This document shows, one piece after another, positions 5,269 through 27,991 of a DNA stretch of 64,000 nt. Made by a program: the position numbers and the translations under genes. A model generated the notes under the pieces. That model was not told where the DNA came from, searched no databases, and saw only the letters and a program-made list of their open reading frames with translations. The stretch lies in contig NC_092680.1 in the NCBI RefSeq assembly GCF_964355755.1, forward strand, positions 7,231,001 through 7,295,000, given 5' to 3'. Origin of the DNA: Antedon mediterranea (taxonomy: Eukaryota; Echinodermata; Crinoidea; Comatulida; Antedonidae). Position 1 is the first letter of the stretch. Every line of letters starts with the position of its first letter.

Positions 5269-7652
5269 ATGGATGACGACAGTATTCAAACTATTAGCTT
5301 GAGAAAGTCAAGTAACAGAAGTAACAAAATTCACCCAAAGGAGCTAGATGTCGAAGTCTTGCGTGCAACGACGTCACTCAGTATCAGAATGAGTCACCCA
5401 CTCTACTCTCAACTGAAATGGTTTATTTTCATCATGAAAGTTGCTGGAATATACCACGAGCCATCATTTAATGACGTCAGAAAACAAGAAGTAATTTGGA
5501 AGATATGGCACTTTGTTGTTTGCGTCATAACTGCGTTTAACTTTTTCCGATTTGTTCCAGAAATTTGGAAAACAGATATTTTTCCTGGTCTAACGTACTC
5601 TGAAATAATTATGTGTGCGTGGTTTTTCCAGGTGTTTGTAAATACAGCAATGACATTCGTTATATGCGCTAAAAAGGAAGGTTTATTATCGTTTTTTGAA
5701 CATAGCCAAATGTTCGGTAACAGTGAAGAAAGTAAACTCCTTAACTGCGTTCCTGATAAGAGTAAGCTGAGCCGCAACGTCAAAGTTTCATTAGTTATTA
5801 CTGCAATGTGGATCATAAGTGGCTTTTTTATTTCACTATACTTAACACTTAAACTTGAATCCAGTTCGTATCATATAATGACTGCTCCTTGGACATCGAA
5901 TCTTAGCATAACGCTCGTTATGATTGTCTCTGTCGTATGTCATTTATCATCCATACAACACACACTTTTGTTTTGTCACATTTCCGAGTATCTAAGAACA
6001 CAGTTCAAATTACTCTCAGAAACTTTTTCGAAGTTGTTATTAGAGTCTGAGGAAGGCAAAAAAGGTGAAGTAAATGAGCGCCGTTATGAGTTAATACGTC
6101 AACAACACAACCACTTGTGTGTTTCTGTTCAAAAAGCAGATTGTTGCTTTTCAACGTTGGTGTGTGTAGCATGTTTTGTGGACATCCCACTAATGATATT
6201 CATAGCATATCAATGTATTTACTTGAATGTAAATATTGAAACCAGGTTAAGTTATGCCTATTGGCTTGTTGTAGTTACTATAATGGTTGCCGCTTTAACA
6301 ATTTATGCATCGTGTCTTAATTCCGAGGTAAGTTCGCACAGTGTACACCGTACCCAATTCGCTTACGTTATTAGTTTTCGTTTACATTTTGTTGTTTAAT
6401 AAAATCATCTTCGCAGTAACTTTATGATTGCGTTATCTTAACAAAAACGGTGTTATAACGCCCTAATTACGGCGTTATAACGCCGTATTATTATAAAATA
6501 ATTGTTTTCTTTGGCGGAAATCAGCCACCGAGTTAACACCTTTCATCATAGTAATTGTTTTGTTCTACATGAAGATATACGAGAATTGACAGCAATGTTA
6601 TATGCCATATTAAAATATTGTGTATTGTATTTTTTAGGTTCATGCATTAAATGAAAAAATATTCAAATTGAACGCAATTGCTGACTCGCCAAACGATAAA
6701 CTTCTCACGGTAAAGCTTGGTTCCCACTTGGACGCAACGTAAGGACGTGGACGCAACGCAAGCGAGTTGACCAATGACAGAGGACAGTTAGAATATTCCA
6801 TCGCTTTTGATTGGTCAAATCCCTTATGTTGCGTTACGTCGTTGTGTTGCGTCTCTAGTGGGAACCAAGCATTAGGAAAACAGTAGTTTTAAACATGTAT
6901 GATTGTAATGTATGTGCACGCACTTACATTATTATCAACTTGTATGGAGAAATGCATGCATAATGTTTTATTTGGAGGGAGAGCAATAATTATCACAATT
7001 ACAACCTAATACGACACATTTACCCGATACGAATTGGCCTTTAGTTTATGTCATGATGTGGAGATACAGAATATAATCGGGTGACAGATAAGTAGGCCTA
7101 ATAAATCTTATCTTAACAATCTTATATTAAACTTTGGTATTAATGTGCATGATCAGTAATCACTCCTAATTGTCGTTTTTTTCAGGTACATACTCTGTTT
7201 TTGTCTCGATTGAATGGCCCGCCTATTGGCTTTTCTGTGTGGGGAATGATTATCATTAGCAAAGAGGTTCTATTGACGGTAAGATGGTGTGTTTCCAATT
7301 AGTGGTCTACTTACACGGCCGCCGGGCGAATGAGAGCTCACAACATTATTATGGGTCTCAGACGCTTAGAAATACTGTATCTTAACATAATTTTGATTCC
7401 GGTAATTTTATGAGAATATATTAGTATAAGTGTTAGATTGTCTTGGTTACCAGCTGAAGCGCAGAGATAAGAAATAAGGATATTATAATGTCTATTAAAC
7501 TCGGGATCTAGAAAAAAAACAAAAAAACCTGCAGATTTAGTTATACGAGAATATTACAATGTCATTATTGGCTAAAAAATACTTTACTTTCTTTTCTATA
7601 GGGAGTTGGTATGGTGTTTACATATTTCGTACTGTTGGTTCAGTTCAAATAG
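5269..7652 (+). CDS. Gustatory-receptor-like (Gr/Grl) seven-transmembrane protein
   Basis: This is a complete gene with exons 5269-6327, 6638-6709, 7186-7278 and 7602-7652. All introns are phase 0 with GT-AG borders, giving 424 aa. Hydrophobic helices are visible at about residues 81-100, 108-131, 171-192, 208-228, 287-310 and 324-345. The last exon supplies a final helix, TYFVLLVQFK, then TAG. This TYhhhhhQF signature is the hallmark of the insect chemoreceptor superfamily's TM7. The preceding exon (FLSRLNGPPIGFSVWGM) also fits the family. Family members are ligand-gated cation channels in insects; their role in non-arthropod animals is less certain. The start is the first ATG, 16 bp after a polypyrimidine AG that may be a UTR acceptor. 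Left unspliced, the first exon runs on to a stop at 6397-6399. A MITE sits just after the exon 2 donor. Confidence 0.85.
6715..6870. mobile_element. 156-bp MITE abutting the exon 2 donor of the Gr-like gene
   Basis: The element begins GCTTGGTTCCCACTTGGACG and ends GTCTCTAGTGGGAACCAAGC, an obvious inverted terminal pair. Internal GACGCAACG/CGTTGCGTC motifs also mirror each other. Any target duplication is short and not certain. Its first bases are positions +6 onward of the intron whose donor GTAAAG starts at 6710. Confidence 0.85.
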
Positions 7653-9639
7653 TTTTCAACGTTGGATAAATTCGTAGTTGTGGACTAAACAGAATAGAAA
7701 GGAACATGGCTCTGTATTGCAACTATATCCATCGAGTTTTGATCAACGACGACAATATCTCTGGAATTGTAATACCTTTACGCAACCGTATTCAAGATTG
7801 GTTCTATCAAGACTTATATCATGGATGCTATATCCTTGTTTTCATGTCTAATTCCAGAAAATGATCTCTATCGACACCACCACCGCGGCGCTGATCTGAT
7901 TACCGTAAATCTTCTAATAGTAACCCACACTCTAATATTAATCCCCTTCTAATAGTAACTCACCTTATAAGTCAATCTATAATAATAACCTATTACTCTA
8001 ATAGAGTACCCCATGGGGGTTACTATTGTAAAATATATATATATATAATAATAAATACGTTCCCTAGTTGTGTTGATTGTATCATGTATATGGAGAGAGG
8101 ATTGTAACAGCGGTAACATTAAAGTGATCAAACCAAGGCAATCTAACAGGAGATGCTGAGCTCCGGAGAAAAAAGGGTTTATCTGTGGCTGCGACACGAT
8201 CAGTTCCCATCCCCTTAAACAGACACTGCAGAGATGTTCATAGCACAGTAATGTTGGTATTTGTCGCAGCCAGACAAGAGATCAAAGGAGTTCCTCTTTT
8301 GCGAGCTCAGTGTCCTATTAGATTGAAGCACACTCTTTGAACATCAGATCTTGAAAACGGCTTTTATATTGGAAGAAGTTGTGAATCAACTGGGTTTAGT
8401 CAGTAGTGTCAATGATTGGCTACTGCTGGTTATGATATCTACGTCACAACCAATCACTGGGCATCATCAAATCAGAGATGAACACGATTTTCATAAACAT
8501 AATTAGAGTGTTTCAATAGGGTTTTTTGTTTTAATGTTGTATTGTGCAGTATATGATAGGACAATAGTTAATGAACGAAGGTGCGAAGTTTCATTGTATT
8601 AGAACAATTAGAATACCCCATTGCTAAGGCGTAAACAAATACTCGGCTATTTTTTTGCAATTTGCATTTTGTAAGTACAGAAACTGTACTGCATTTTTAA
8701 ATCATGGATTATGTAGTTTCAGTATTTATGAAAATCTCAATTTTGAAAATGTCTATGTCCGATTCTGTATGAATGTCATATCTGTACTGTTTAGTTAGGC
8801 AAACATGAAATTTGGTTTCAATGATTGCTATACACTATACTTATTAAAATAAACACCCAACACATCGTTTGGCGTTAACTTTTTCTTCGAATAAAACCCC
8901 GTCACATGCATTACAAATGTCTATTTTGTAGTACATACAATTCATTAACTTCCATTACCTATATAATTTTACTGTATTTTTACTCGGGGTACCAGAGTCT
9001 AGGACTCGCTCATCTTCTCCTTCCATCTGGACACTATTGAGCCAACTTTAAAGTCCTACTAGTTCTTTAGGCGTCGTCTGACGGCTCTGAAACATGGCAT
9101 GCATATACAGTACTGTACTAGGGTAATAGGTGAACAAAGCTATAGAGAGAACATTTTTGTACTTCAACCGGATGCAGAATTACGTCGTAAACATGGTATG
9201 AAACGAAAAAAGTGCGATTTAAAGTACTACTCCTCCCTTATTCATTGTAGTATTGAGCTGGGATTTGGCATGGGTATACTACAGGGACATGTCCTCAAAG
9301 CTATAGATCCGGATTTTAAAATTTCAAATCGGATACAGCCATATGACATCTCGAAGATGGTACCTTGGTACCAAACGATTTTCGTCGTAATATAGCCGTG
9401 TTTGGTGTCATTTCAAAGGTATTGACTTGGAGAATAAGAATATACAGTAAAACCTATTTATGATATTGTGACGTCACTTCTGCTCGCGGAAATAGCAAAA
9501 AATCACTTTTGAGATTTCACAATTTACCGTAATTATGCCATTTCCGGTTATGTGACGTAACTTTTCGGAATATAGCCGTATTTGGAAGCGAGGGTAGTAC
9601 AGGGAAATTTTCCAAAAATGGCCAATAAAAGAGAATCTC
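7653..9639. other. Intergenic region between the Gr-like and RNA-binding-protein genes
   Basis: This contains the Gr-like 3' UTR, a short TA run near 8033-8046, and repetitive sequence at 9330-9600 where ATATAGCCGTNTTTGG occurs twice in direct orientation (9391, 9571) beside GTGACGTCAC-type motifs. The 98-codon frame at 9099-9395 shows no recognisable domain or splice context. No gene is called. Confidence 0.5.
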
Positions 9640-10253
9640 GCAAATACATTTAACAAAATTTATTTGAAAACACAGCATTTTAAGTAAACTAATGGAATAC
9701 GAGAGCTATAAGAAATAATATTTGATATGGACACAATTGAGTGGAAGACTGCCATCAATAGTCAAGTACATTCAAACCCAGCAGAACAAAGTAAACCGTA
9801 TATACATATCGTGCAATGAATGTGAATGTTTAACCAATTACTTTCTTTTATTTTAACAATAACATACAAAATAAAATGCATTCCATCATTTTAGTAGCAT
9901 ACTATTTATACAATACACAGCTGAAAATTCCATCATAATTTCTCAAAGCTTTAAAATACATTACTGAATTAAAAAAAGGATATTGAAACTTGTTAATTAA
10001 AAACTCTCAGATAAATTACCTAACTGATAATTGGAAATGCCAAGTTTGGTTGTTTTTCCTGGTACAATTATCAATTACAAATGCTTATTTTTGGGTCAAA
10101 AGAATCACCAGGTCAGTATCATGAATGTAAACCTAACGCATACAATAGAACAATTTCTCTATTTTCTTTTTTAATTGTCCTAAACTCCCGCCCAAGAACT
10201 TTTTACAAATACTCAGCATAGATAATACTGCTAACATAGCTTGGTCTATTAAT
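9640..10253 (-). other. 3' UTR of the minus-strand RNA-binding-protein gene
   Basis: Reading on the minus strand from the stop at 10254, this segment aligns over most of its length with the 3' UTR of the plus-strand paralogue (26874-27440). Shared stretches include GTAAAAAGTTCTTGGG, GGTTTACTTTGTTCTGCTGG and AATACGAGAGCTA (or its complement). It ends with an AATAAA. Confidence 0.75.
9659..9664 (-). terminator. Poly(A) signal, minus-strand RNA-binding-protein gene
   Basis: TTTATT on the plus strand reads AATAAA on the minus strand, in the context CAAATAAATTTTGTTAAATG. The paralogue at 27406-27411 has the identical context. Confidence 0.75.
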
Positions 10254-13200
10254 TTACCACTGCTGTTGCCCATAGTCGCCACCGCCGTATCCTCCGCCGC
10301 TGCCACCACCACTACTGTATCCTCCTCCTCCGCCACCGCTGTATCTTCCTCCTCCACCACCTCCATAATTACTTCGGCTATTTCCGTAACCGCCGCTGCC
10401 ACCACCGTAGCCTCTGTCGTTAGATCTATATCCTCCGCCACCGCCTCCATATCCTCCGCCGCCGCCTCCATATCCTCCACCACCTGCTCGACGGTCATAA
10501 CCTACAAAGAAAAACATAGTAAAAGTAACTTACAAACTGGGCCACTGATCGCCACCTCCTCCAAATCCACTTGACCAACAACAACAAACCTAGGTATGCG
10601 CGATCGACGTTCTGATACTGTATTTAGAATGAATATTTTTTTTTCACAAGGTCCCAAAGATATTACGCGCGCACGTATTAATCTATCTTCAGTATTGTTG
10701 GAAAGTTCTCGTTTCAAAACCTACCTCCTCCGCCTCCACCTCCACCACCACGACGACTCGTTGCTGGTTGGATTCTCAACTGTAAAAAAAAAAAAACAGT
10801 CCACAATTCACTTAATCTGTGTGTGCAGTTTGATATTTGACAATTTAAAGGGTTTAGTTCTAAATTAAAACGAGTACATCAATGATGGTCCCACGTGTAA
10901 TCATGTTTGTGTGGAAGAGCCGAGGATAGTTTAGCTGCCTGCAAGTGAACTCTCCCCAAGATAAGCTCAAAATCTATTTAGATAATCATCTTCTAAAATC
11001 TCCATTATCATTTTGATGATGCCATGTTAAAAATTGGAATAAAAGATGGGTCTTGTGATTTCTCCTATGCTAAACACTGTACTGTATATAATTTATACAG
11101 TATATTCTGTAAAAATACTGTATACTGTACGACAAAAAACACAATTCATCACTGTAAACATTTACTTCATCAGTCGGAGAGCCGCGTTGGGAAATATGAC
11201 CGCTATCGCTGAATTTACAATTTCGCACGACGTCATAAATTTTTTAGAGAACCTCTCTCGGCACAGAGGCATCAACGTTTCGCGCGAAAACATTAGCATA
11301 AAGTATACATCATTTAATAGCTGTTTAATAAACATTAGTAGGCGATAAGATTGAGGCGTTGAGATAATTTCCTTCCAAAATTGCTACCTTTGCGTTTCAT
11401 TTTGAATCCGTTAACATGTTAAAAATTGGAATAAATAGCGAGTTTCGTAATTTCACCTATTCTACACTGTATGTGCTACTGTATGTATACAGATTATACT
11501 GTGTATACGATATGACACAAAATAACAGAATTCAGCAATAAAAACATATCATATTCTTCAGTTCAGGTCATAATGCCATAATCTTTTTCTGTGTGCAATA
11601 TTCCAACGTATGACGTGCACGTGGCGTTTGTGGTGCGGATAACTAACTCGACAAAGTGACGAGTTTCATGTCTAGTTTTGGCCTAGTTATTACAATATTT
11701 TTTAATTTTGGCCTTGGTGCCCCTTCGATTTAAAACAAATGGCCTTGGTGCCCCTAAAATCAATTAAATTGTAGTTCAACTATTGAAATACGTTTATTGA
11801 TTTAATTTAATATCAAAATTATACCATTTTCTAAGTGTACTAAAATAGCAAAAACATTTTCCACGAAGCGCGCCCTCACAATGAATGAAATCAGTGATGC
11901 GTTACCAACGCGGCTTTCCGACTGCATGTCGAAGAATGGAATAATTATTTTCAGCGTCAAAGTGATGAGTTCAAATCAAGTTGAATTTAAATTTAGAATG
12001 TTTTTTACATTTTATAAAAAAGAATCTATCCACAGAACATAAAAATTCTTACCACTCTACCACTAAGTTCAAAATCTGCGCTGGCAATCGCCTTCTCCGC
12101 CATCTCTGGGTCAACAAATGTTACAAACCCAAAACCACGACTACGTCGAGTTTCCCGATCCGTGATAATAGTTACTTCGGTAACCTTGCCGATGTTTTCG
12201 AAAGCAGCTTCTAACATCTCTGCAAGAAAATATTTAGTCGTTGGATTTACGGTGCATAGATTAGAATTGTAAAAAAAAATCATTAATATAAGATGTTGTG
12301 GTGAGTAACGAAGGTAAGAATTTCCAATATTGTTATGCAGTAATGCATACACAAAATTTGCAATGACTTGGTGAATACTGTGTGCTGCAGTTCCATTTCT
12401 TTAAATCACTTCAATAATTTAGTTTAAACAACTAATGTTGCAAATGCATGATCAAATATACCACTTAAAAAAAGTAGTGTCATATCATAAATTCACTGCA
12501 TTGCTATTTGGCAATACACCAGTCCTTCACGTATGAAAAAGTTCATTGCTCTCCTGGAATACTGAGAGCAGTTTGCTCTCCTAGTACAGTACATGGTGCA
12601 AAATGTGGACTAGCCTAGGCTGGGTCCGGGAGGAGAGCAATTAGTTGCTCTCCTTGAAACAAGTTTAGGAGAGCGGAGGAGAGCAATCGCTCTCACTCTC
12701 CTTAAAACTGATGGACTGAACACACAGTACTGTACAACACTACATTCATGTCTGTAATAGACACAAAGGGTACTGTATGTTCACATGTACGGTGGAAGGC
12801 TGGCATATGCCTTGCTCAACGTATGCCTTTTAATGTGAACTAGGCAGTTAATAACTCGCAAACTATGCCATGTTCTATCGCGTGGCAACTAGGCCAGCTA
12901 TATCTTAACTAACACCACAGAGCTAACTACAACGACGCTTTTGACTTTATTTCAAGATATTTACCAATGACTTCATGTCTTTTAATGTATAGTATTGGAA
13001 AATTTATTGCCGATAAAACAAGCTTTACTAAGCTATTCTCTGCTATTTGAAAGCGTATGAATTTGTTTAGGGTGAAATAAATAAATAACGGTCAAAAGTA
13101 GAGTGACTTTAAAAAAGAATTGAACTCGGAAATGAAGCTCAGAGAATAATTAAGATTAGTCAAGCAGTCAACTCTGCACAAGACAATAAATCATCACTAG

Positions 13201-16200
13201 ATATTTTGTATAAAATTCTCCCCTTGCACGATTACTTTGTAATTTTTATTTAGAAATTTTGAAATGATTACATTGGTTTTCTTAAAGGGGGGTTCCGGGT
13301 TTAAAATGAATAGTAAAAAATGTAAAATATATTTGTTTGTCTCTTGAACGGTAAAAGTTTCAATTTATATAAGCGCCCAGTGAAGCAGAACGAAGGCTGT
13401 GAAATGAGGCCAGATTACAAGTGCAGCTACGGCAAAATCACACTGTGGTTACAGAATAGGAAATTCGTGAAATGGTCAATCTTCCGACGACTCGTTATCA
13501 TTAACCATATCAATTACTTTTGTAAAATTATACTTATCTGATGTAATTTTAGTCGGTCTTCCCATTTATAAAGTCAATTTTCTATGAAAATCCATCAAAA
13601 CAGTGAAAAATTAGATAAGTTTGCACTTTACGTTTGCCGATTTTCGCACTGACTTAGGGAAAGCCTTCAAAATCAATGAAGCGTAACGTATACATTCCTG
13701 CTGAGCGAGGAGAGCGAGACGACGATACACGTGCTCTCTCTGTCCATGCCTGGCATCATCACGTGATAATCAGATATAATACAGTATACAATACCAAACT
13801 GGTCGGGTCGAGTATACCCCGTCTATAATCACAACATGAACGATGTACAGTATTTGATTGAAGGTCGACTCAACCTACCGGAATGGTATAGATAATATAG
13901 CTCGAATGAGAGAGTTTGAATATTTGTAAACATAAGTACAGTATTGCTAATTTTAACAAGTGTAGCCTATAGTAAAAGGCCTGGTAGTATCAATTCGCAT
14001 AGGGTCTACTACACTAGCTAGCTCAATTTTTAACTGGGCCGGATCGGCTAGGCTAGGCTAGGTCTCCTTCCTACTCTACCGGTCTACTTGCTTGATGCAG
14101 TATCCGCTTTTTTGGAGAGTAAACTAGGCCTACTTATTACATTAGACGATCGGGACGTACACGTACGTGCGGACGGCGATCGGACCTTGTTTTGCCTCAA
14201 TATTTACAGCAGATTTTTGTAGAACGTTTTAGGTTTAGACTGTTTAGGAGTTTGGTTGATAGGATGGGTTTTGAATCCACTGAGTTTTGTTATTGATGGG
14301 CCAATCGTTTAGTAATAGGCTAGCTAGGCCCATGAATGATGGCCCCAATGTTTTAACGTAGCCATCGTGGCATGGAATCCCTAGTCAGAAATGGCTCTCA
14401 CCCCGGCATGAATAAAATGATTTAGGCTAGGCCTAGCCTAGTACGTGAAGCCGATATACGATCTGTACTATTAATTCAAGGTATAAAAATAGTATAATTT
14501 ATGACCCCGTAATCTGTACTAAATTTTGTATTTCATTAAATGTCAAATAAATATATGCTACTACTGTTATTATTACACCTTAGGCCTAGCTTAGCAAATC
14601 TACAAAAAAATGTATTTCACAATGATCGGGTGGTCGAGGTCGTCGTTTGACAGAGAGGAGAGAGAACACAACTAAGCTTGACGTCGCGAGTTTGGAATCC
14701 ACTGATGACGTGATTTTGTGAATATCTCATGAATATTAATGAGCTTCCCTAAGCTGCTGAAAAACAGACTTTCCATGAATTTACCCTAAAATGTATATGA
14801 AATTTAATTTTTTTAATTTCTCGTTATTTCTTCTTCATTCTGACATGTCTATATTGTTATAATATTTTTTATTTAATAAATAAACGATATTTAAAAGCAA
14901 TTTTAAACCCAGAATCCCCCTTTAAGTTGTGGTGTACAATAGTATAAGCAGCAAAAAAAAGCAAGGATACCAATTACATATAGTACTGTAAATTTAGGCC
15001 TGGCGTTCAATGCTCAGCATTACAAATCTATAAAGTATAATTTAAGCCAAAATTTTCATACCCATACTAGAGTAATACTATTATATTTGAGTTGGCGGAG
15101 TTGACTGTATTATAGCAACGGACACATTACGGAAAGGGTCACAAAGTATTATGATACAGTAGTTAGTATTAATACTTCGCAAGGAAGAAGTTAGTTGAGA
15201 TTCTCAATAAACTTTTCATATTTAGTAAAAACCACTTGGCCCAATTTTAGTTAGAGTTCTAACTTGATCACATGAACATATTTTTCAGGGTAATACTATA
15301 CAGATATATACTGCTTAGAAGTTAAATATAAGATTTGACATCCCATATTTTACCGATATATTACACAGTCAACAAATAGAATATCTGCTGGGTCGGCTAG
15401 CTAGGCCTCCTTTATTGTATGTAAACAAGCCTGCCTAGACACTTTACCTTGCAAAAAATAATATACAGATAATTACGAATTATTAATTCCTTGGCAATAA
15501 AATATTCACTAGCCTAGGTTGTTTAAATAATAACAGAAGAATTGCCACCAATAAGCCTACATTAATAATAATATTATCAGGTAGGCCGAATAAATAATAA
15601 TTCATCTACTTCGAGCCGAATCATTGGATGTTCGCCGCGTACCGAGTTACTACTGTGAGTATTAACCAATCACAAACAGTCTTTCATCACATCTAGGGAG
15701 GACTAATAACAAACTATAGACCACAACAAACTCTTGTGCATGACATTCCGATGTATGTAGGTCATTAGTATTTTTGACGCAAAAAAAAGAAAATAACGCA
15801 ACCTTGTTATAAAAAAATGTTTAAATTGCACAAGTGTAAACATTTTCTATTTAATTATTATACATGAAATTGAGAATTCGTAAAATTGAGCATCAGAATT
15901 AAGGGCTGCTCTCATGATGCTTCACAAGTTCTATACTATTACAGTACTGTATAAGAAGAAAAACCGCACTAAATTTTCTTAATTTTAAGAATCCTCAATT
16001 TGATTTTTAACCGATACAAAACAAACATTTTAAAGAAAGTTAATCATTGTGTAAACAAACAATTAAAAATATGTGTAAATCGGGTACAAAAGGAACCATT
16101 TCTATCAACCAATTCGTAACAAAGAGAACTTTAGATTTTAGTCTTAATATGAGAAAGTTGAAATCGTAATCCATTATCAGGTCAGAAACAATTCTACTGC

Positions 16201-18009
16201 CCTTTATTGTAAGCATAGAGAGATCTAAACGAATGCTTTAATATATTCATTAAAAACCAAACTGAACTTTTGTATAACTGAGCAAATACAGACTAATATT
16301 TTGAGTAGACGTATTACAGTTTATCGGAATAACAAATGTTCTTTCTCATGTTCTCGTACGGATGGCTTTCAGACTAGGGCCTCAGGCACCCGCAAACACA
16401 AACCAAACTGACCTTCCGTAGTATCAAAGCTTAGGTTACCAACATACACCTTTCTGTTGATGAAAAACGTTAACAAATCATTACATTTAATTGCCTTTCT
16501 TTTTATAGCTTTATCCACGAAGGATTTGAAAATATAATCTCAAATATTAAACCTTCTTTGGTTTAAAGAGTGTGATTTTTTTAACTATACTTAAACCAGG
16601 CTTTATTTGTGAGATGTTTCCTTGGTCTTTTAAATCAAATATGGTACAACTTGTGTCACCAAGCTCTGTTTATGTATAGCAAAATAACAGTCATTATCAA
16701 TCAATTATCATCAAGAAAACAGTATATTTTATTGAAGGCCTAGCTAGAAGTAACAAAGATTCAGAAATAAAAAATTTACTTAATCTTCTTTAAAATATTT
16801 TAATTAAAGCCAATACAGAATATTGTTCAATATTGTTATTTTGCAGGACCTACTGTAGCTCTAAATGAACGTTATGTCTAAAGATACGGTACCGTATCCA
16901 TACTTTTAAAAACTAAAGGTACGGTAATTATAGAGGGCGCTATGTAATGGGGATGTTAATCAAATAGGTTATTGCATTGGTTTTCTGCAAGCCAGCTGTG
17001 TAGCCTAGTGGGCATGTGGTGATGCTTTGGCTTAAGGGGTTGTAGGTTCGATACTCTTCTTGACGTCTTTTTTAAATTTTTTTTTTTTAGTTTTTAATTT
17101 AAGAGAGATTATTTAGAGGGTTAGGTTTTTAATATTTAGGAAGGAGTTTAATATTTAGGAACGAGTTTTATATTTAGGTACGAGTTTTAGGAATGCAATT
17201 TTACCGTACTTTTAGCAAACGGAAGCGCCCTCTATAATTACCGTATCTTTAGTTTTTAAAAGCATGGATACGGTACCGTATCTTTAGCAACGGCGCTAAA
17301 TGAATGCTTACAAACACTAAATTTTTATTATTTGTTAGGCCTACTAGCCTCGAGTAGTAGAATTAAAAAGAACCATATTAAATTTTTAAAACTTGTTTAG
17401 CCTTCTATTTATTATAGTTGCTCTTTTTCAATAGAAACAAAAAATATTAAACATGGAGTATACAAAATTTGCGAACAGTGTGCGAGATACTCGTCTTGAA
17501 AAATATAAATTGAAAAGAATTGTTTTTACTTTTTATGCGATTTTCCTTCATAAAAGTACAGTACTTATAATTCTAAAAAAAAGTGTAGTATTCACGATAA
17601 TTGATAAATTAAAAACAGTAAGAGATTTATAGATAGAGTTAAAAAATACAAGACTGTTTCACTACTTTTTACACATGCTAAATGTAAAATGGAACAACCG
17701 CCCGAAAAAGGTCTAGCGAAAATTAATGTTTTTGGGGCCTTGTATAAATAAAGAATTTATTTCTGTGTTTATAAAATTAAATAAAGTAATGCAGGTATAT
17801 CTAAATAAAACCACCACGTGCTCTTGTCTCACGTGATACATCTAGCTTATGTGCTTTGTGTGGTCTAGGCTAGGCCTAGTCGTCCATCGTGTTAACAAAA
17901 AAAACCAACAAAAATTAGGTTTTTTTAAATAATCTCCCCATTTAATCTTATTGTATGTCACAAATTAAAATAACAAAAACAATATATACCCTGCTTCTGA
18001 TTCTCCCAT
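10254..18009 (-). CDS. Glycine-rich RRM RNA-binding protein, CIRBP/RBM3-like (copy A)
   Basis: This is a single-RRM, glycine-rich RNA-binding protein of the cold-inducible (CIRBP/RBM3) hnRNP type, expected in nucleus and cytoplasm. Minus-strand exons run 18009-17990 (ATG; MGESEAG), 16453-16413 (RNP2: KVYVGNLSF), 12219-12053 (RNP1: RGFGFVTF), 10779-10725, and 10501-10254 (YGGGG repeats ending DYGQQQW, TAA). Phases agree and give 176 aa, close to vertebrate CIRBP. All introns are GT-AG; introns 1 and 2 are long. The paralogue at 18686-26873 has the same five exons with identical sizes for exons 1-3. The RRM exon differs at roughly a third of its residues, while much of intron 2 is nearly identical between copies. 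A long frame overlapping the Gly-rich exon in another phase is a shadow of low-complexity DNA. Confidence 0.9.
12541..12715. repeat. Cluster of GGAGAGCAA inverted motifs
   Basis: The segment contains a hairpin (GGAGAGCAATTAGTTGCTCTCC split at its centre) and further GAGAGCA/TGCTCTC copies. It ends in a GATGGACT motif. A related stretch with GATTAGTTGCTCTCCTT and GATGGACTA is at 22507-22600. It is probably a fragment of a dispersed repeat in intron 2 of copy A. Confidence 0.5.
13286..14921. mobile_element. TTAA-flanked non-autonomous DNA transposon (piggyBac-like)
   Basis: TTAA at 13282-13285 is followed by AGGGGGGTTCCGGGTTTAAA. The right end is its imperfect reverse complement (TTTAAACCCAGAATCCCCCT) followed by TTAA at 14922-14925. 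TTAA target duplication is typical of piggyBac elements. No transposase frame is visible in the 1.6 kb interior, so it is non-autonomous. It lies in intron 2 of copy A and has no counterpart in copy B. Confidence 0.8.
15850..16560 (-). promoter_or_regulatory. Conserved intron block around exon 2 of copy A
   Basis: On the minus strand this matches 23525-24215 of the paralogue, through exon 2 and about 560 bp into intron 2. Two 60-bp windows (16261-16320 and 16141-16200) are identical between copies. Others differ by a few substitutions or a 2-3 bp indel. Noncoding conservation exceeds that of the RRM exon. A splicing-regulatory role is inference; the conservation is directly visible. Confidence 0.75.
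16878..17287. mobile_element. Foldback/MITE, CTAAAGATACGG family (copy 1)
   Basis: Long inverted ends of about 62 bp begin CTAAAGATACGGTACCGTAT and run to GAGGGCGCT; the mirrored copy ends CCGTATCTTTAG at 17287. Flanks carry a near-direct repeat (CTAAATGAACG before, CTAAATGAATG after), possibly target-derived. The interior has a tRNA-like segment and 3-4 tandem units of about 20 bp (AGGAACGAGTTTTATATTT-like). A second, decayed copy is at 32652-32923. Confidence 0.8.
17001..17055 (+). pseudogene. tRNA-like sequence with A and B boxes inside the MITE
   Basis: TAGCCTAGTGGG at 17001-17012 fits the pol III A box, and GGTTCGATACT at 17045-17055 fits the B box with tRNA-like spacing. A T-rich run follows at about 17068-17088. 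No complete cloverleaf with paired acceptor stem was found, so it is called tRNA-derived or SINE-like rather than a working tRNA. Confidence 0.45.
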
Positions 18010-18685
18010 GGCTTCCGTTGATATTGAATTGAATAATTTAGATTTTTGTAGCTTAAATGTGCTATCTCAGTCTTCTCTGTTCAACCCAAGCGAAGAAAAA
18101 GAACGAGAAAACGCGGCACAAGAATTAATTATTGTTCATAAGTGCGAATATCCATCATTGCGAAAACGAGGTGAAAATGAAAGTAACCCGCAAAAAAGCT
18201 ATAGAGAGAGAAGAATTCAATTCGCCCTATTGTTAGATTAGTACTACAGATTATCCAGTCATACGTACCACGTGATCTAAACTAACAAGTACTTAACAAT
18301 AATTATTATTAGTCCTAGACTAGGCCTAGTCTAGGACAGAAATTACTGAATGTACTTTAATTTTATTTTTGCGCAACAAACAAGCAAAATATGCCAAAGA
18401 TTAATTATGATGATGTCGACCAACAAACAAAAGACAAAGACAAACCAATAGTAAAATAGTGCGAATTGAATTCTATGTTTAGCGCCACGCGGATGAATAT
18501 TTTGGTTTAGTTTTCGCATTAATGGGCATTCGCCCTTGTGTGACGACGTGTGAACAATAATTTACTCGCGCCGCGTTTTCTCATTCTTTTCTTCGCTTGG
18601 GCCCGATAAGAGAGAAGGCTACCTAGGTTTGCACATTAAAGACTACACAAATCTTTTTATCTATACGCAAATATCTACGAAAGCC
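18010..18685. promoter_or_regulatory. Bidirectional promoter interval of the RNA-binding-protein pair
   Basis: Only 676 bp separate the two divergent start codons (18009 minus, 18686 plus). Both ATGs have similar leaders (GGAAGCC and GAAAGCC before ATGGGAGAA). The interval contains GC-richer sequence around 18530-18610 and no other supported gene. A 77-codon frame starting at 18008 runs over the copy A start region and is rejected. Promoter function is inferred from position. Confidence 0.6.
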
Positions 18686-21600
18686 ATGGGAGAACCAGAA
18701 ACTGGGTATAAATTTGTTATGTTATTTTAATTAATGACATTCCTACATGATACAATACAATTAAAAGTAGTAAAATCATGCACCGCGCCTAGCTAGCTAG
18801 GGCCAGGCTAGCCTAGGCCTAGTAGTACTAGCCTTAGGCTAGGCCTAGCCTAGGCCTAGTAGTACTAGGCCTAGTAGGCCTACTACTACTTACTACTACT
18901 ACTAACTAGCCTAGGCCTAGTACTTCTATTAGGCCTAGGTAGGCCTAGTAGTAGACCAGCAGAGGCTAGGCTAGTAGTAATTAATAGGTAGGCTTGTTCC
19001 CAACACGTACACAAGACGCGTGACTGACACACAGACAGTAGAGCATTCTATCTACGCACGTGTCGCTTTGTGTTGGCGATAATCCTATACTAAGACTATA
19101 GTATAGGCCTAGCTAGGGACTGGCATATATTTTTCAATTTATCTTTCTGCATTTGAATAGTGTTCAGTTTGAAAGAGTATATAAGCATTTTAAACTTTAA
19201 ATCAACAAAATTGATTGAGTATTTCGAAAGTTATGAATAAAATAAGGTGTAAAAATTTGGCACCATCACTATGCTTTGTTTACATACGAATCCCCACCCC
19301 GCGTTTGTGACCTTGTACACAAATAGTCACTGGGTGAAAATACTACTAAAACACATAAATACATTTTATGAACATATTTTTAATTAGAAAGTTGATGGTG
19401 ACAAATGTATATTTGCATAGTACCACATTTTGTTTGGAAATAGTGTCAAAATCACAAAAATAAGATAGAAAGTACTTATTTTATGTTTACCCTCTCCCCG
19501 GACTGCGCGAATGTCCCGGAGGAATACCCCCACCTCAGACAGGCTGTGTGATGACATCATCAGGGACTTCGCGGCCTAGAATTGCTTACTCACCTAGCAT
19601 CAGGTGATTTAAAACCTTTTGCGATCCAATATAGGTGATATTTATGTAAAACCAAAGGCGTACACTGTTAAAATATAAATATATCTAAAATATATAAGCA
19701 AAATCCCAAAATATTGGGCATGTTTTCGATTTTTTCTGATTTTACTAACATTTCGAGCCCAAAATAAAATGTCATCGCGAAGACATGTGGGCAAAGGAAT
19801 TTCAAATTTTTCATTGGAATTTTCCGGAGAAGATTGTACAGTCATTCGTTTTTTCTGAATAGCCAATCAGAGTTCGTAAATTCATGCGCAAGTTGACCCC
19901 TTTTTAACAGGTTATGGGTCACACTTGTCTATTCCCTAAAGATGTGCTCCATACAAATTACCGGATTTTTATAAAAAAAAATATAGAACGCCGTGGTTAG
20001 GATTCCGGCACCGGAACTCAACTGCCCAGCGTTAGGGAATCCGACACGCTATTGCGCATGCCCAGAGCGAGGTAATTGGCGACTCTATACTTATCAACAG
20101 CGATGGGTCATTTCATAGCTGCGCCACAGCGAACCATACTAGCCGAGATGGCTACTAATACGGGATCCACTAATAGTAAATGCTAGGCCTACCAGTTAGA
20201 CGTGACCAGTGGGCCTACTATTTATTTTGTAATTAAAAAGTGGTCGCTTCATTCATATTTATAAACTTCATATAATTATGAATTTGTATATAATTACATG
20301 ACTAGTTCTATGATTTTTCAAGTACAAAATAAAAGATTTCATATAACGCATTATACTGTACATAACATGCAATCGCAAGTTGATTTGTCGACGGCAGCCA
20401 CCGCGTGGATGTGAAAAAACTGTTCGGGAAGTCGGGGTCGCAACGCTAATTACAGCATTAGGATTCTTAGATAGATACTGATTCTTATTAATATAATAAT
20501 TATTTTAACGCGTGGCGTAGTCGTACAGTCGACTCCGCGAAAGTCAAATTTTTAGGAAAGTCCCAATTCTTTCCTATACATTACTGTGTAATTTTTATTT
20601 CTAAGTCGAAATTCGTCTAAGTCGACGTCTTTTTGCTGTCCGAATACACACATTCTTTAGTGATTTATATCGTATAAATCGAAGTCACAAATTACGCGGC
20701 AACAACGCGCTAAAAAAGCCGATGAAACGTACGTAATTCGATAAACAAACAGAGGGGATAATGTGGGACCATATCGGTTCTCTCAAGCAGGTTGTATAGT
20801 ATAGGTGGCGTCCTACAACTCGCGCTAGTGTATAGTGTACAAGTTGTTTCACAGTTGAGAACTTGAGTGGCGTTTTGTGGGTACCTATTTTGTGCTAGAC
20901 AGATGGCAATAAACAATGGATACCGATTTCGAATAAGAACCGAAATGTATTTATTATACGTTTTTGTATTGTTTCAAGAAAATACAGTTTATCATTGCCG
21001 ATAAAGAGGCTTAGCATTTATTAGCTAGCTAGCTAAGCAAACTCAATTCAAGAAGGCTCATCAGGGCTCGATTTTTGAAATTTTACTAGCTAGACCACTG
21101 GGCTTGTTCAATGTGAGTTTCACTAGCCCACTGGATGTTTCACTAGTCCGCTTATTGACTAAATCTTACTGGGTATATACCGCACACCTGAATCAAAACT
21201 AACTAAACTACTGTAAGTTCTAGTTAGTTTATACAGTAGGCCTATGCTGTAGTTTAAAGGTCAATAACCATACTATCGGCTATTCAGGAATCCGGCTATT
21301 CTTGTACAAAATGTGCCATTAGACTGGATAGAAACACACATGTTTTAAACAATTTAAAACGAAAAAAAAATTCATAAGACCACAATTTTCAAAGTTATAT
21401 TATTATTATATTTGACTAATAGTTCAAAGGTCAATAGTTGTAGAATCGGCCATTTTTTGTAAAAACATTTCATTATAATAAATATGAATGTATAGTTTCT
21501 GAACAATTTGAGCCCTATTTCGTGTCTCTCCGATTATTGGTTACTGAGATACGATAAATCAAGGTCAAATGGCAAAATGCCAGAAATAAGACTTGCATCC

Positions 21601-24600
21601 ATTTTTTGAGAAAATGTGTCATTAAAGTGAATATAAAAACATATATTTAAAACATTTTGACACCAAAATTAATTATCTGTGACAAGTGGTTCTCGAGATA
21701 TAGGGTAATTATAAAAAAGGCTTAGATGGCCGAATTTCGCTTGGGATCCGCCATATTCGTAATCAGCAAGGTCGAAATATCCTAAATCAAGTGGATCCCA
21801 GCTTCTACCCAAAAATGCTTCTTGATTCGTTTTCTAGGCTGTTTTTTCAGAAATCTACTCTAGGCTAGGCCTAGGCCTATAATAAATAACATAGGGCTAG
21901 GCCTAGGCCTAGAAATTAAAAACAAAAATTAAGTACCTGTATTTCACAAAGTAATACAAAAAAAATATTAATGACAAGTTACTAAGTATCATTTGAATAT
22001 TACATCTTAAAAATGTAATTAAGGAAAGGGTATTTGGCTGTGTTTACATGCGGCGGTCACACACGCGATGCTTGCTAGAAGAGCTAGACCAGCTGCTGGG
22101 ATGGTGAGACTAGAGGACATGTTTTGTCACTAAATTTGGGTAACCAAATTGGTTGATTTTTTTCGGAGAAAAAAATTAATTAAAATTCCAAAGACAGAAG
22201 TGAAGCATCTTCCTCTAATTAATAAAAATAGGCCTACTTCTATTAAATTTTTTTTTCATTAACTATATTTTATACATTAAAATTGATTTGTTCAATAAAA
22301 GCAACCATTTGGTTGGTACTTGTTCTGGCTTAAAAGACTAGTTGAGGCATTTATCTGACACCGCACTGGATACACTGTGAGGTGGAATGGAAGTAAATTG
22401 GCACTTGAAAGCAAAGATCGTATAGCGCCACGTAGTGGCGCTCTTCGTGGCGCTATAGTATCTTTGCTTGAAAGCAGACAGGGGAATCCCCTTATTGGTG
22501 ACTTGACACGCTGATTTAAGGAGCGTGATTAGTTGCTCTCCTTCGTTAACGTTAACGAGGAACGTGATTGCGAAGGCGCTCTATAAAAATGATGGACTAC
22601 AAACAATTAGGCCAGTGGCTAGAGTATTTTAATAATGCATTTTAAAAGTCTAGGCCTAAATATTCTCTAGCCTAATTATTTACACACTAGACACCCGGGC
22701 TTGTTGGGTGGAAGATTGACTAACCCAGAGCAGTTTTAACTAGACATTGTACGCCGGACTAGTGAAATATCGAGCCCTGCTCATCGCGTGGGCCGCGACA
22801 GGGCAGGGTCCACTAGGCCTAGCCATAGCGCGGCTAGTGAGTGAACCTAGGCCTAGCATTTTTTTGGCAAATCTGTAAGTCGAAGTTCGCGTAACTCGAA
22901 TATTTATACCGGTCCCATTCGATTAGACTTAGGCGGAGTCGACTGTATTTATATGCCTAGTGTGTTATCATTATTGACATAATTTCATTTAACAACTAAA
23001 AGTCGTAGTTAGTTATGTCTCGGGTCACATTCTATGGTCACCGTACAGATAGGCTACTACATCAGTACTTCTATGAATGGATGACTAGTTGGTGACAAGA
23101 ACGCTAGTTGGTCATACCCAGTACCGTTTTGATTTTTACGATCTTTCGGGAAACCACCTCACGATGTTATTCTTCAAGTTAACGAACCGTGTACAGTATC
23201 AACAGTAACATTCATGGTTCTTTTCTAAATCTACTCTATGCCTAATATAAATTTGAGTCTTTGTGGGCATTCCAGTTAGGAACTAGGCCCTATTTAATAA
23301 AATTTGCAATGTTACCTCTAGGCCTACAATAAAATATAGTTTTCTTGTTTGATTGATAATGACTTTGTTATTTTGCTATCAATAAACAGCATGGTGACTC
23401 AAGTTGTACCGTATTTGATTTTGAAAGACTAAGGATACATCGCACGAATAAAGCCTGGTCCAAGTATAGTTAGCAGATATGGTTCCTGACAATATTTTGG
23501 CTTAAAAATCACAATGTTTAAACCAAAAAAGTTTTTTAATTTAATATTTGAGATTAATTTTAAATCCTTTGTGGATAAGCTGTTGAAAGAAAAGAAATTA
23601 TAATGATTTGTTAACGTTTTTCATCAACAGAAAGGTGTATGTTGGTAACCTAAGCTTTGAAACTACGGAAGGTCAGTTGGGTTTGTGTTTGCGGGTGCCT
23701 GAGGCCCTTGTCTGAAAGCCATCCGTACGAGAACATGAGAAAGAACGTTTCTTATTCCGATAAACTGTAATACGTCTACTCAAAATATTAGTCTGTATTT
23801 GCTCAGTTATACAAAAGTTCAGTTTGGTTTTTAATGAATATATTAAAGCATTCGTTTAGATCTCTATGCTTACAATAAAGGGCAGTAGAATTGTTTCTGA
23901 CCTGATAATGGATTACGATTTCAACTTTCTCATATTAAGACTAAAATCTAAAGTTCTCTTTGTTACGAATTGGTTGATGATAGAAATGGTTCCTTTTGTA
24001 CCCGATTTACACATATTTTTAATTGTTCACACCTAATGATTAATTTTCTTTGTTTGTATCTGTTCGAAATCAAATTGAGGATTCTTAAAATTAAGACAAT
24101 TACATTTTGCTTATACATTACTGTAATAGTGTAGAGCATGTGACGCATCATGAACCCTTAATTCTGGTCCTCAATTTTACGATTTCTCAATTTCACATAT
24201 AATAATTGAAATTTGAACATACATACTGTTACATATTTTGCAATAAGTTAGCACAGTTCAAACAAATATTTGTAAAATAGTTCAGTAGAAAAAAGTTTTG
24301 TGCGCTACTTCCTTTTGTTCTGTGTATAAAATTACTAATACTATAATATTTGTGTAAACCTTGTCACTGTATTAGGGACTTTACGAAACATGACGGTGCT
24401 CATGAATAATTTATGAATGAGCTCTATCAAAGTGGGCGGAGCTTATCGTGAAATTTTGCCGTCTTAACTTTTTGAGGATGATAAAGTTGCCATTTTCCCG
24501 TTTAAGGAGAACGAATAGTTCAAATTACACTTAAAAGTGGAAATTTCAAAACTCTAAAAATTATTTGAACTTCTTGTTTAACGATATAACATTTTTATTG

Positions 24601-26873
24601 GGTTAAAATGGCTGTGTTAAAAGCAATACATTCTGCGTGGCGTTTGAATGCGAGGCTCCTGCTAGGAAGGCCTATGCTGTTCTACCAGAGCCAAGCGATT
24701 CAAAAGGCCCCATGCCGCGAGACAGGAGAGGGAGAGAGATACTGCATCGGTCAACTTTGCACAAGGGTGCGTAACTAATAAAACGGCTATGTTGACTGAT
24801 CAGTGATATATGATTTTACGCTCTAGTGGACAGGATATTCGTCGTCCTCTAACCGTCGTGTTTCGTAAAGTCCCTATTGACTACACTGTGAAAGGGTTGC
24901 ATAAGAAACTTGTATTATTTTCCATGCAAGGTAGTGTACTAAATACACATTGTTAATTTTTGAAAAAATCCTTAATTGTTACAAATTTCGTTGACAATTT
25001 TTTTGCTGTCCTATCTAGTACAACTCTGCATTGTCTTTAATTCTTTAAAATCGAAATGGTAATGATGATAAATGGTTTATGTTGACATACTGTAGTACTA
25101 CTCTGAGCTTGTAGAATCGCCTGACATCCCATGCACATTTACTGTATACGTCGATAGGCAACCTCTTTAAATTAAACATTTATTGTACACTTCAAAAGTT
25201 TTGGTCTGAGGAGCTAAATATGACTGTATGCAATACATCTGCAATTACAAACAGAGTGGTTTCATTTGTAGAAATTGTTTTCACTGAACACACCGAAAAT
25301 TTAAGAAAGCCATGTTTACTGGTAAAGTTGTTAAATGTTTGAAAAGTTTAATTCTATTTTGGAAGAAGTCCATATTATTATTAACAATACAAATGAATAA
25401 TTGAAAAAAGAGGTTCGACTAAAAACAAGGTTCGAAAAGTAAAGAGATGATAATGAATGTAGTAGTTGGGTCCTCAAGTATTTATACTGTCTGTACCATA
25501 ATATAATTTTTGTTTTAACCTTTTTTTAATGTTAATACAGTATGTACTATATTTCATGAAAATTTGACGACTTAATGCAGAGTTGACTATACTGAACATA
25601 GTTGTGGATCTTTATGGCATGACGTATGTTGCCTAATAACAGCACAGTGCAATTAGAATTGTACTACTTGGTTTAATTAAGTTGCGTTTGATCATGCATT
25701 TGAAGCATTAGCTCTTTTTTGTAAGTAACTGTACGTTGTTTACATACTTTGGTTCATTAAAAAAAAAATGAACATTTGGTAAAAGCAGCAGTCATTTTCT
25801 TATGATGCTTGACACTTTTGTGCTTGCATTACTGCGTAAAAATCTTAGGAATACTCGCTTGTTTTACAATTATGTTTTATGAATCCTAATATATACATTA
25901 TTAAAACTACGTTCTTAAATCTATCAACCAAATATTTTCTTACAGACGATTTGCAATCTTCTTTCAAAGCCTTTGGGGAGGTCACCGAAGTAACTATTAT
26001 CCGAGATCGCGAAACTAACAGCAGTCGTGGTTTTGGTTTTGTAACATTTGACAATCCAGATGCCGCAAAGAAGTCGATTGACAGCGCAGATGTTGAGCTT
26101 GGTGGTAGGGTGGTAAGAATTTCTACTCTATGTTCTGTAGATAAATTATCTTTGTCAAATGTAAAAAAACAATCTAAATGTCAATAAATCCTTTAAATTG
26201 TCAAACTGCACACACATCTTAAGTTAAGTCAAGTTAATTGTAGATACATGTTTTTTTTTTACAGTTGAGAATCCAACCAGCAACGTCTCGTAGTGGCGGT
26301 GGTCGAGGAGGTAGGATTAAAAATGTTTAAATCTTGGCATGACTGAAAATGCATTATTAATATTTAATTGAGATTAATTCTCTGACGAAAGCATGCAAAA
26401 TATGCCATTTCCTGAATATACTATTTATAGTTTACTATTCTTTTCAACTTTATTCAGAATTGTATTTTTTGGCCCTGCTCTGGGTCCACTTTGAGTCCAA
26501 GGCCCCTTGGTTTGGCTAGTGAGCCCTCGTAGCCATTGCACCACTGGATATGTAGTTTATGATACGATTTTAGAAAAAAACTTTGCTTATATTTATTTCT
26601 CCATGCTTTATACAGTTCTTTATGTTTTTCCTTGCAGGTTATAGAGGAGGCGGCGGCGGCGGATATGGAGGCGGCGGAGGAGGATATGGAGGCGGCGGTG
26701 GAGGATATAGATCTAACGACAGAGGCTACAGTGGTGGTGGCGGCGGTTATGGAAATAGCCGGAGTAATTATGGAGGTGGTGGAGGAGGAAGATACAGCGG
26801 TGGCGGAGGAGGAGGATACAGCGGTGGCGGTGGAGGATACAGCGGTGGCGACTATGGGCAACAGCAGTGGTAA
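18686..26873 (+). CDS. Glycine-rich RRM RNA-binding protein, CIRBP/RBM3-like (copy B)
   Basis: This is the paralogue and mirror image of copy A. Exons are 18686-18705 (MGEPETG), 23631-23671 (KVYVGNLSF, RNP2), 25946-26112 (RGFGFVTF, RNP1), 26265-26310 (LRIQPATSRSGGGRG) and 26638-26873 (YGGGGGGY repeats, then SGGDYGQQQW and TAA). All borders are GT-AG with matching phase; the product is 169 aa. In the family such proteins bind RNA through the RRM and use the Gly/Tyr/Arg-rich tail for assembly and localisation. Intron 1 is about 4.9 kb and hosts a nested pair of DNA transposons. Intron 2 begins with the block conserved in copy A. If intron 2 were retained, the frame would run 14 codons and stop at 23713-23715; copy A keeps the same arrangement. 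Confidence 0.9.
18781..18985. repeat. AGGCCTAG/GTAGTA-rich low-complexity patch
   Basis: The palindromic heptamer-octamer TAGGCCTA and its neighbours (AGTAGTACTAGGCC, TACTACTACT) recur many times within about 200 bp just inside intron 1 of copy B. The motif is scattered through the whole window (for example 14410, 21860, 22800). Confidence 0.7.
21063..22778. mobile_element. hAT-like non-autonomous element nested in a pogo-like element
   Basis: Ends are AGGGCTCGATTTTTGAAATT and, mirrored, AATATCGAGCCCT, flanked on both sides by GCTCATC (21056-21062 and 22779-22785). The duplication is 7 bp, close to the 8 bp of hAT elements, and the ends resemble hAT termini. The interior holds three imperfect tandem segments of roughly 130-170 bp starting near 21256, 21425 and 21559 (each with AAGGTCAA and a CATTAGA/CATTAAAG-type motif). 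No transposase frame is seen. Confidence 0.65.
22413..22467. mobile_element. 55-bp foldback insertion with 8-bp flanking duplication
   Basis: A near-perfect hairpin (left arm with ATAGCGCCACG, right arm with CGTGGCGCTAT) has TTGAAAGC immediately on both sides (22405-22412 and 22468-22475). It looks like a tiny transposon remnant inserted inside the hAT-like element. Confidence 0.65.
23525..24215 (+). promoter_or_regulatory. Conserved intron block around exon 2 of copy B
   Basis: This is the counterpart of 15850-16560 in the minus-strand paralogue. Similarity starts about 105 bp upstream of exon 2 (ATATTTGAGATTA) and continues through the exon into intron 2 to about 24215. It is nearly identical at 23681-24020 and more diverged at the edges. 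Known analogues are conserved intronic elements of hnRNP and SR-protein genes that control their own splicing; applying that here is inference. Confidence 0.75.
24373..24876. mobile_element. 504-bp DNA transposon with 24-bp inverted ends
   Basis: It starts TAGGGACTTTACGAAACATG and ends with the mirror CGTGTTTCGTAAAGTCCCTA. The next bases (ACGGT/ACCGTC) also pair. The target duplication is unclear. It lies in intron 2 of copy B and is absent from copy A. It has no coding capacity. Confidence 0.75.
26455..26560 (-). repeat. SINE-like fragment related to 53220-53415
   Basis: It shares CCCTTGGTTT/CCCCTGGTTT, AGTGAG and TAGCCATTNCACCACTG with the element at 53220-53415. On the minus strand this gives CAGTGGTGCAATGGCTA, resembling a tRNA 5' half with A box. 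It lies in intron 4 of copy B. Confidence 0.5.
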
Positions 26874-27440
26874 ATTTATAGACCAAACTATGTTAGCAGT
26901 ATCATGGACGAGTCTTTGTAAAAAGTTCTTGGGAGGGAGTCTGGGGCATTTAAAAAAAGACTAGAAATCTTTCCATTGTATGTGTTTATATTTGTAGTAC
27001 TGGCCAGGTTTTCTTTGTCCTAAAAATAAGCATTAGTAATTATAGTACATTATATATGGTTTTCCATGAAAAAAATAACTTTACATGTCTAATGAACGTG
27101 TTCATTATCTAGTTTTAAATAAATTAATTTTGATACCCATTTTTACTTCACGACTGTATTTTAAAGCTTTGATAAATTACGGAATGGAATTTTCAGCTGT
27201 GTATTGTATAAATAGTATGCAACTAAAATAATGATGCATTTTTTTGGTTAAACATTCACATATGTATATACGGTTTACTTTGTTCTGCTGGGTTTGAATG
27301 TACTTGACTATTGATGGCAGTCTTCCACTGTGTCCGATCCCATATCAAATATTATTTCTTGTAGCTCTCGTATTCCATTAGTTTCCTTAACATGCTGTGT
27401 TTTCAAATAAATTTTGTTAAATGTATGCCTTTTTGTGTAG
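26874..27440 (+). other. 3' UTR of the plus-strand RNA-binding-protein gene
   Basis: It aligns with the inverted segment 9640-10253 of the paralogue, including a near-identical stretch around 27260-27330 (GTATATACGGTTTACTTTG, then TTGACTATTGATGGCAGTC). It ends with AATAAA at 27406-27411. Extended UTR conservation may reflect recent duplication, gene conversion or regulatory constraint. Confidence 0.75.
27406..27411 (+). terminator. Poly(A) signal, plus-strand RNA-binding-protein gene
   Basis: AATAAA in the context CAAATAAATTTTGTTAAATG, identical to the paralogue's signal at 9659-9664. Confidence 0.75.
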
Positions 27441-27991
27441 ATTCTCTTTTGTTTGTGAAGTACTGTAGTAATAATTGTATCGTAATACATTCATATTTGC
27501 AATTCATAAAAAGTCATCCGAGAGGAGGTACGATAAATTCAAAGTAGATATATTTTTTCACAAATTTGCATATAATTACCGATTTTAAAGTGCACACATT
27601 TTCCAGTTTAATAATAATAAATAACATTTATAAAGCGCAAGAGACAAAGGTTTCAAAGCGCTGTGTTTTCCAAGATCAGTGCAAGTAGTAGCGTGCGATT
27701 ATGCTTCTCTGAAGAGATGAGTTTTGAGTTTAGTTTTAAATGTGATAACAGATTAATAATGTGTTCTTTTGCAAATAAGTTAATAAATATCACAGAAAGA
27801 ACGGAAATCAACATTTTTACGCAATTTCTGAGCTTATTTAGTAGCACGGTACAGTATTTGAACAATATACATTTAATTTGTCGAATTTATTCTGAATTTA
27901 AGAAGGCCGACTTAGAAAACTGAAGACCGCCCTCTTTAATAATCAATTAGAGGAGGATCGTGATCCGCCGATGTGATGGTCTACCTATACA

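Follow-up and report, generated by a model that had tools for sequence, protein, structure and literature searches.

Introduction

RBM3 and CIRBP are proteins with one RNA recognition motif (RRM) and a glycine-rich tail. The RBM3 gene has a conserved poison exon, exon 3a, in its intron 3, and the CIRBP gene has a poison exon that is excluded in the cold (PMC10165353). Here we describe two head-to-head paralogues encoding single-RRM glycine-rich proteins in the crinoid Antedon mediterranea (NCBI RefSeq assembly GCF_964355755.1, contig NC_092680.1, positions 7,231,001 to 7,295,000 of the forward strand). This whole stretch of 64,000 nucleotides is referred to as the window, all coordinates are positions within it, and the paralogues are named the plus gene and the minus gene after their strands. 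The two copies share a near-identical core around exon 2, most of it intronic. We consider that the core is likeliest to be a relatively recent, short gene-conversion tract atop an old inverted duplication, and give this reading a probability of roughly 0.6.

The pair resembles RBM3 and CIRBP in its broad protein class and in its conserved intronic sequence (PMC10165353). The report on these genes documents a premature-stop cassette exon with RNA data, located in intron 3 in the case of RBM3, whereas in A. mediterranea the core lies next to exon 2, and scoring it with a generic splice-site matrix revealed no cassette exon flanked by good sites. Another comparison is offered by AtGRP7 and AtGRP8, each of which influences how a cryptic 5′ splice site in the intron of the other is used (PMC3526319). 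As here, these are two glycine-rich RNA-binding paralogues with an intron as a possible site of control; they are, however, plant genes with demonstrated mutual effects, whereas the present pair is known from its sequence, and its best alternative donor, at 23695, is weak. The ultraconserved unproductive-splicing elements of SR genes are likewise long and near-identical sequences in RNA-binding-protein genes (PMC4379411). The identity described in that account is between species, and the elements mostly originated separately in each paralogue, whereas at the present locus it is two paralogues within a single genome that are near-identical. In Drosophila, ultraconserved elements that overlap exons have been associated with alternatively spliced exons (PMC4989106). 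None of these systems is a near match to the present locus, where the identity is between paralogues and has step-like edges.

The heat-shock and amylase genes of Drosophila, described in PMC3924832, are examples of ectopic (non-allelic) gene conversion between duplicates; there too the copies are linked, and one patch greatly exceeds the remainder in similarity. Ectopic conversion is reported to be more frequent between nearby duplicates in Drosophila, a conclusion which the source itself calls tentative. The present case differs in having one main patch of ~430 bases around a small exon, and in that the transfer is proposed from a comparison of the two copies.

A near-identical core around exon 2

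BLASTN aligned positions 23318–24210 in inverted orientation to 16743–15850 (939 columns, 84.6% identity, E = 0). The block and the core within it are as follows:

23318 to 24210, plus strand: alignable block around exon 2 of the plus gene (BLASTN), with flanks that are 13–15% divergent
15850 to 16743, minus strand: alignable block around exon 2 of the minus gene (BLASTN)
23596 to 24027, plus strand: near-identical core of the plus gene (change-point analysis), the proposed gene-conversion tract
16058 to 16492, minus strand: near-identical core of the minus gene, partner of 23596–24027 (alignment to the plus core)

The borders of the core come from a change-point analysis over the 850 aligned columns of the block, which contain 64 mismatches. 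Models with one to seven segments were compared by the Bayesian information criterion (BIC), and three segments had the lowest value (428.9, vs 460.9 for a single rate). Mismatches amount to 31/238 columns in 23318–23595, 5/429 in 23596–24027, and 28/183 in 24028–24210. The excess of the flanks over the core is large (Fisher P = 5e-14), although this value is descriptive only, as the borders were picked from the same data. The left and right flanks are alike in divergence (P = 0.57), and they are flat with distance, with 19 of 119 columns differing within ~60 bases of the core and 40 of 302 farther away (P = 0.53). Constraint would be expected to decay gradually instead of stepping in this way.

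Besides its five substitutions, the core contains three small indels. All five substitutions lie within 23661–23751, the mismatch at 24028 falling just outside the core, and 23752–24027 has no substitution and two small indels. The longest identical run in the block covers 273 aligned columns with gaps skipped; when the mismatches were shuffled across the block 5000 times, no permutation gave a run as long. The core extends from the final 35 bases of intron 1 through the whole of exon 2 (23631–23671 and 16413–16453) into the start of intron 2, in which part 5 of 354 positions differ. A sequence-only reading of the window had drawn attention to a near-identical intronic block between these genes, a claim that the alignment bears out and extends. 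Its two identical 60-bp windows understate the substitution-free stretch, and its description of the block as intron sequence holds for most of the core, which also takes in exon 2 and 35 bases of intron 1.

The divergence of the core stands at 0.012, compared with 0.155 in the flanks and 0.39 at the silent sites of exons 3–5. The core thus has ~3% of the silent divergence of these exons and, if it is neutral, its copying would therefore be recent relative to the duplication. The sequence-only reading had proposed setting the block beside the synonymous sites of exon 3 and the untranslated regions. The silent sites of exon 3 by themselves reach 0.56, and the distal 3′ untranslated region (3′UTR) has 28 mismatches in 289 columns. 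Within exon 2, none of the 13 scorable codons is silently changed, vs 25 of 118 in exons 3–5, a difference that is suggestive only (P = 0.07). The two cores are 7.1 kb apart and inverted.

The genome (354 Mb, 18 contigs) was searched for further copies, with the best candidates being scored, and on this basis the block is present in two places only. A repeat element as the source of the block was accordingly rejected. The core was also compared with virus and prokaryote collections by means of exact patterns of 30 and 24 bases, and had no matches in either, as expected.

The gene pair

Each gene has five coding exons in splice models built from the sequence and from homology between the copies. 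The plus-gene model encodes an uninterrupted protein of 169 amino acids and the minus-gene model one of 176 amino acids, while the start codons of the head-to-head pair are separated by 676 bases. The coding exons are as follows, all of them from the splice models:

18686 to 18705, plus strand: exon 1 of the plus gene, coding part
23631 to 23671, plus strand: exon 2 of the plus gene, inside the core, with AG/GT borders
25946 to 26112, plus strand: exon 3 of the plus gene, most of the RRM (PF00076 in the protein)
26265 to 26310, plus strand: exon 4 of the plus gene
26638 to 26873, plus strand: exon 5 of the plus gene, glycine-rich tail
17990 to 18009, minus strand: exon 1 of the minus gene, coding part
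16413 to 16453, minus strand: exon 2 of the minus gene, inside the core
12053 to 12219, minus strand: exon 3 of the minus gene, most of the RRM (PF00076 in the protein)
10725 to 10779, minus strand: exon 4 of the minus gene
10254 to 10501, minus strand: exon 5 of the minus gene, glycine-rich tail

Both proteins have an N-terminal RRM matching PF00076 (E = 2.2e-20 in the plus gene and 1.2e-21 in the minus gene) followed by a glycine-rich tail, and the label "CIRBP/RBM3-like" that they had been given is a fair one for their architecture. When the RRM of the plus gene was compared with PDB, the 25 top rows were longer, multi-RRM or fused chains, including poly(A)-binding protein and hnRNP A1/A2. 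The best chains of approximately single-RRM length, among the best 60 of 165 matched, were CIRBP (6.5e-19 and 8.6e-19) and RBM3 (1.3e-18). More distant paralogues exist in the genome, where 21 places were matched at E <= 0.001, the exon-3 matches of both genes included. The next best two paralogues share 51% and 46% protein identity.

Beyond exon 2, the two copies have diverged considerably. In exon 3, which encodes most of the RRM, 42 of 167 bases differ; 35 of the 56 residues are identical and 21 are different, in agreement with the earlier estimate of about a third. At the 3′ end of intron 2, 44 of the final 130 bases differ, and a forced alignment of the short intron 3 of the plus gene with the long intron 3 of the minus gene gave 47 differences in 144 columns. 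The exon 5 region at 26621–26940 is more similar, with 30 of 320 positions differing.

Two further observations concern the immediate surroundings of these exons. The donor region of exon 2 in the minus copy is imperfectly repeated 146 bases away (16254–16274 vs 16400–16420, 86% over 21 bases), without the GT. Upstream of both start codons, 18551–18601 on the plus strand and 18085–18138 on the minus strand differ at 4 of 51 columns, and this stretch is possibly a shared bidirectional promoter element.

The remainder of intron 2 and its repeat elements

Outside the block, intron 2 has few collinear matches at E < 0.01, namely pieces of 91 and 40 columns near exon 3, in addition to 30 bases that adjoin exon 3. 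The two introns carry unlike repeat elements. Intron 2 of the minus gene contains a 1.65-kb element (13281–14926) with 27-base terminal inverted repeats, long copies of which elsewhere in the genome are 94–99% identical. Intron 2 of the plus gene contains a different element of 0.5 kb (24373–24876) with 25-base terminal inverted repeats. Short pieces aside, its other listed copies are 71–83% identical, and four of these are clustered on contig C5. The copies of the two elements come from 40 scored candidates in each case, out of 283 and 473. The remainder of intron 2 is thus, as had been suggested, mostly unalignable and carries different repeat elements. An element of ~410 bases (16878–17287), with 64-base inverted arms that are 97% complementary, is found in intron 1 of the minus gene.

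The distal 3′UTR

A second region of noncoding similarity lies near the ends of the two messages:

27155 to 27453, plus strand: distal 3′UTR of the plus gene (alignment), near-identical islands split by indels, with AATAAA at 27406–27411
9624 to 9966, minus strand: distal 3′UTR of the minus gene (alignment), partner of 27155–27453

One of the islands comprises 89 aligned columns without a mismatch, spanning a 12-base indel, and between the islands are indels as long as 36 bases. Of the mismatches in the distal 3′UTR as a whole, 22 lie at most 12 columns from a gap. In the proximal 3′UTR stretch before the islands, 67 of 205 positions differ, and similarity fades shortly past the AATAAA. The distal 3′UTR, like the block, was found twice in the genome search. 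One sub-threshold Rfam match overlaps it, at 27205–27271 on the minus strand.

The islands look like the product of mRNA constraint, because they are joined by variable spacers and stop close to the predicted end of the message. They therefore raise the odds of noncoding function in this gene pair. Their texture is unlike that of the intron core, and the distal 3′UTR is a better candidate for RNA constraint than the core is.

Proposed gene conversion and its alternatives

Under the gene-conversion reading, the two genes would be the products of an old inverted duplication. Ectopic (non-allelic) conversion, in one or a few overlapping events, would then have copied ~430 bases around exon 2 well after that duplication, and the outer flanks with their 13–15% divergence may either go back to an earlier conversion of greater length or be under moderate constraint. 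This reading is favoured because the core has step edges and flat flanks, disregards the exon/intron border, is far less divergent than its surroundings, and lies in close, inverted copies. The step shape, the flat flanks and the inverted nearness are direct observations, from which a copying event, in one direction or the other, and its age are inferred. Strong noncoding constraint and conversion limited to the block had both been put forward in the sequence-only reading. Conversion fits better, given the step edges, the flat flanks and the near-uniform rate in the core, while constraint finds no positive evidence within the core.

Several observations weigh against conversion as a complete explanation. 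The five differences in the core are not quite evenly placed, leaving the run of 273 columns free of any, an arrangement reached in 570 of 20,000 within-core permutations (P = 0.03). The flanks, with 59 of 421 columns differing (14%), fall below the silent rate of exons 3–5 (~34/111; P = 0.0001), and a second, older tract or moderate constraint is therefore needed as well. The distal 3′UTR islands suggest that noncoding constraint does act on this pair. No further conversion-like run was detected in exons 3–5; the longest one has 19 silently identical codons, a length reached in 1814 of 10,000 permutations, which leaves the idea of another conversion tract among these exons unsupported. The ratio of transitions to transversions was uninformative (1:4 in the core and 32:27 in the flanks, P = 0.19), as was base composition.

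The main alternative, tentative and in our judgement rather unlikely, is that the core is an ultraconserved RNA-processing element under purifying selection in both copies. It might, for example, control unproductive splicing, read-through of exon 2 or polyadenylation within the intron, as a negative feedback by the encoded proteins. The gene class is prone to such control, as the poison exons of RBM3 and CIRBP (PMC10165353) and the cryptic 5′ splice site of AtGRP7 and AtGRP8 (PMC3526319) illustrate, and the near-identical distal 3′UTR islands make noncoding constraint likely in the pair. A reading frame continued past the exon-2 donor meets a TGA after 41 nt in each copy (23713–23715 and 16371–16369), and both cores contain an AATAAA (23874–23879 and 16208–16203). 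An early stop and an AATAAA would, however, be expected by chance in AT-rich sequence, and the fact that they are shared carries little weight because the core is nearly identical anyway. The core also starts ~35 bases before exon 2, which would be about the position of a branch site. Against such an element stand the step-like edges and flat flanks, together with the usual pattern in SR genes. There, paralogues are described as having given up the inherited unproductive event and acquired new ones that differ from copy to copy (PMC4379411), so that paralogues are not usually near-identical in this respect.

The search for splicing signals in the core was no more favourable to an RNA element. 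When sites were scored with the generic matrix, which had not been fitted to this genome, exon 2 supplied the only strong ones in the core. Among new donors past this exon the best, at 23695, scores 2.0 vs 4.5 for the real donor, while the best new acceptor, at 23719, scores 0.3 in the plus copy and −1.7 in the minus copy vs 2.9 for the real acceptor; the best acceptor that is equal in both copies, at 23807, scores −0.9. When the matrix was checked on the plus gene, it placed six of the eight real sites among the top 18 of 490 candidates for donors and 481 for acceptors; it missed the donor of exon 1 (rank 168) and the acceptor of exon 3 (rank 114). Folded as RNA, the plus core in its sense orientation is not more stable than shuffled sequences (z = +0.47), 69 of 100 of which were at least as stable. 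No Rfam family matched within the core at E values up to 1 on either strand, and the five Rfam matches over a 22-kb stretch are all far under their gathering scores, with none overlapping the core. A known structured RNA or tRNA was rejected on these grounds. A conserved coding frame was likewise rejected, as stops occur in all three sense frames of both copies and a 2-base indel separates them.

Selection and conversion could also have acted together. The core would then be a shared auto- and cross-regulatory intron element, acting at the RNA level in a pair of cold-shock-like RNA-binding genes, whose near-identity is kept by conversion plus selection (concerted evolution), alongside a constrained distal 3′UTR, a combination that we regard as unlikely. 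It is quite improbable that the core acts in transcription, as an enhancer or promoter element that was duplicated with the genes and constrained in both. Such an element could be mostly intronic, noncoding, near-identical and confined to two places in the genome, as the core is, but the core contains a coding exon with its splice sites, and the step edges and flat flanks count here too. An artefact of assembly or polishing, in which reads from one copy corrected the other where the two were already similar, might yield a near-identical patch with sharp edges. We consider this highly improbable, since five substitutions and three small indels persist in the core, and the similar exon 5 region (26621–26940) was not made identical.

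Other genes in the window

Several other genes are recognizable in the window. Two open frames of glycosyl-hydrolase family 31 are located on the plus strand (41407–43641 and 49488–51470), exons of a fructose-1,6-bisphosphatase on the minus strand (36828–37799), and a FAST-kinase-like open frame on the plus strand (30886–32424). An open frame of 392 amino acids at 5221–6399 has no Pfam match at E <= 0.001, and by eye it has the look of a multi-pass membrane protein.

Implications

Near-identity of paralogous introns is easily mistaken for functional conservation. Before function is inferred from it, one should check what shape its edges have, whether its flanks are flat, and how the silent sites of an enclosed exon behave. 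If the core should prove to be conserved across species, the pair would be unusual in that its members retain a shared splicing-control element, unlike the SR genes as described in PMC4379411, which evolved separate ones. If concerted evolution should be the true explanation, both proteins would regulate both pre-mRNAs in common.

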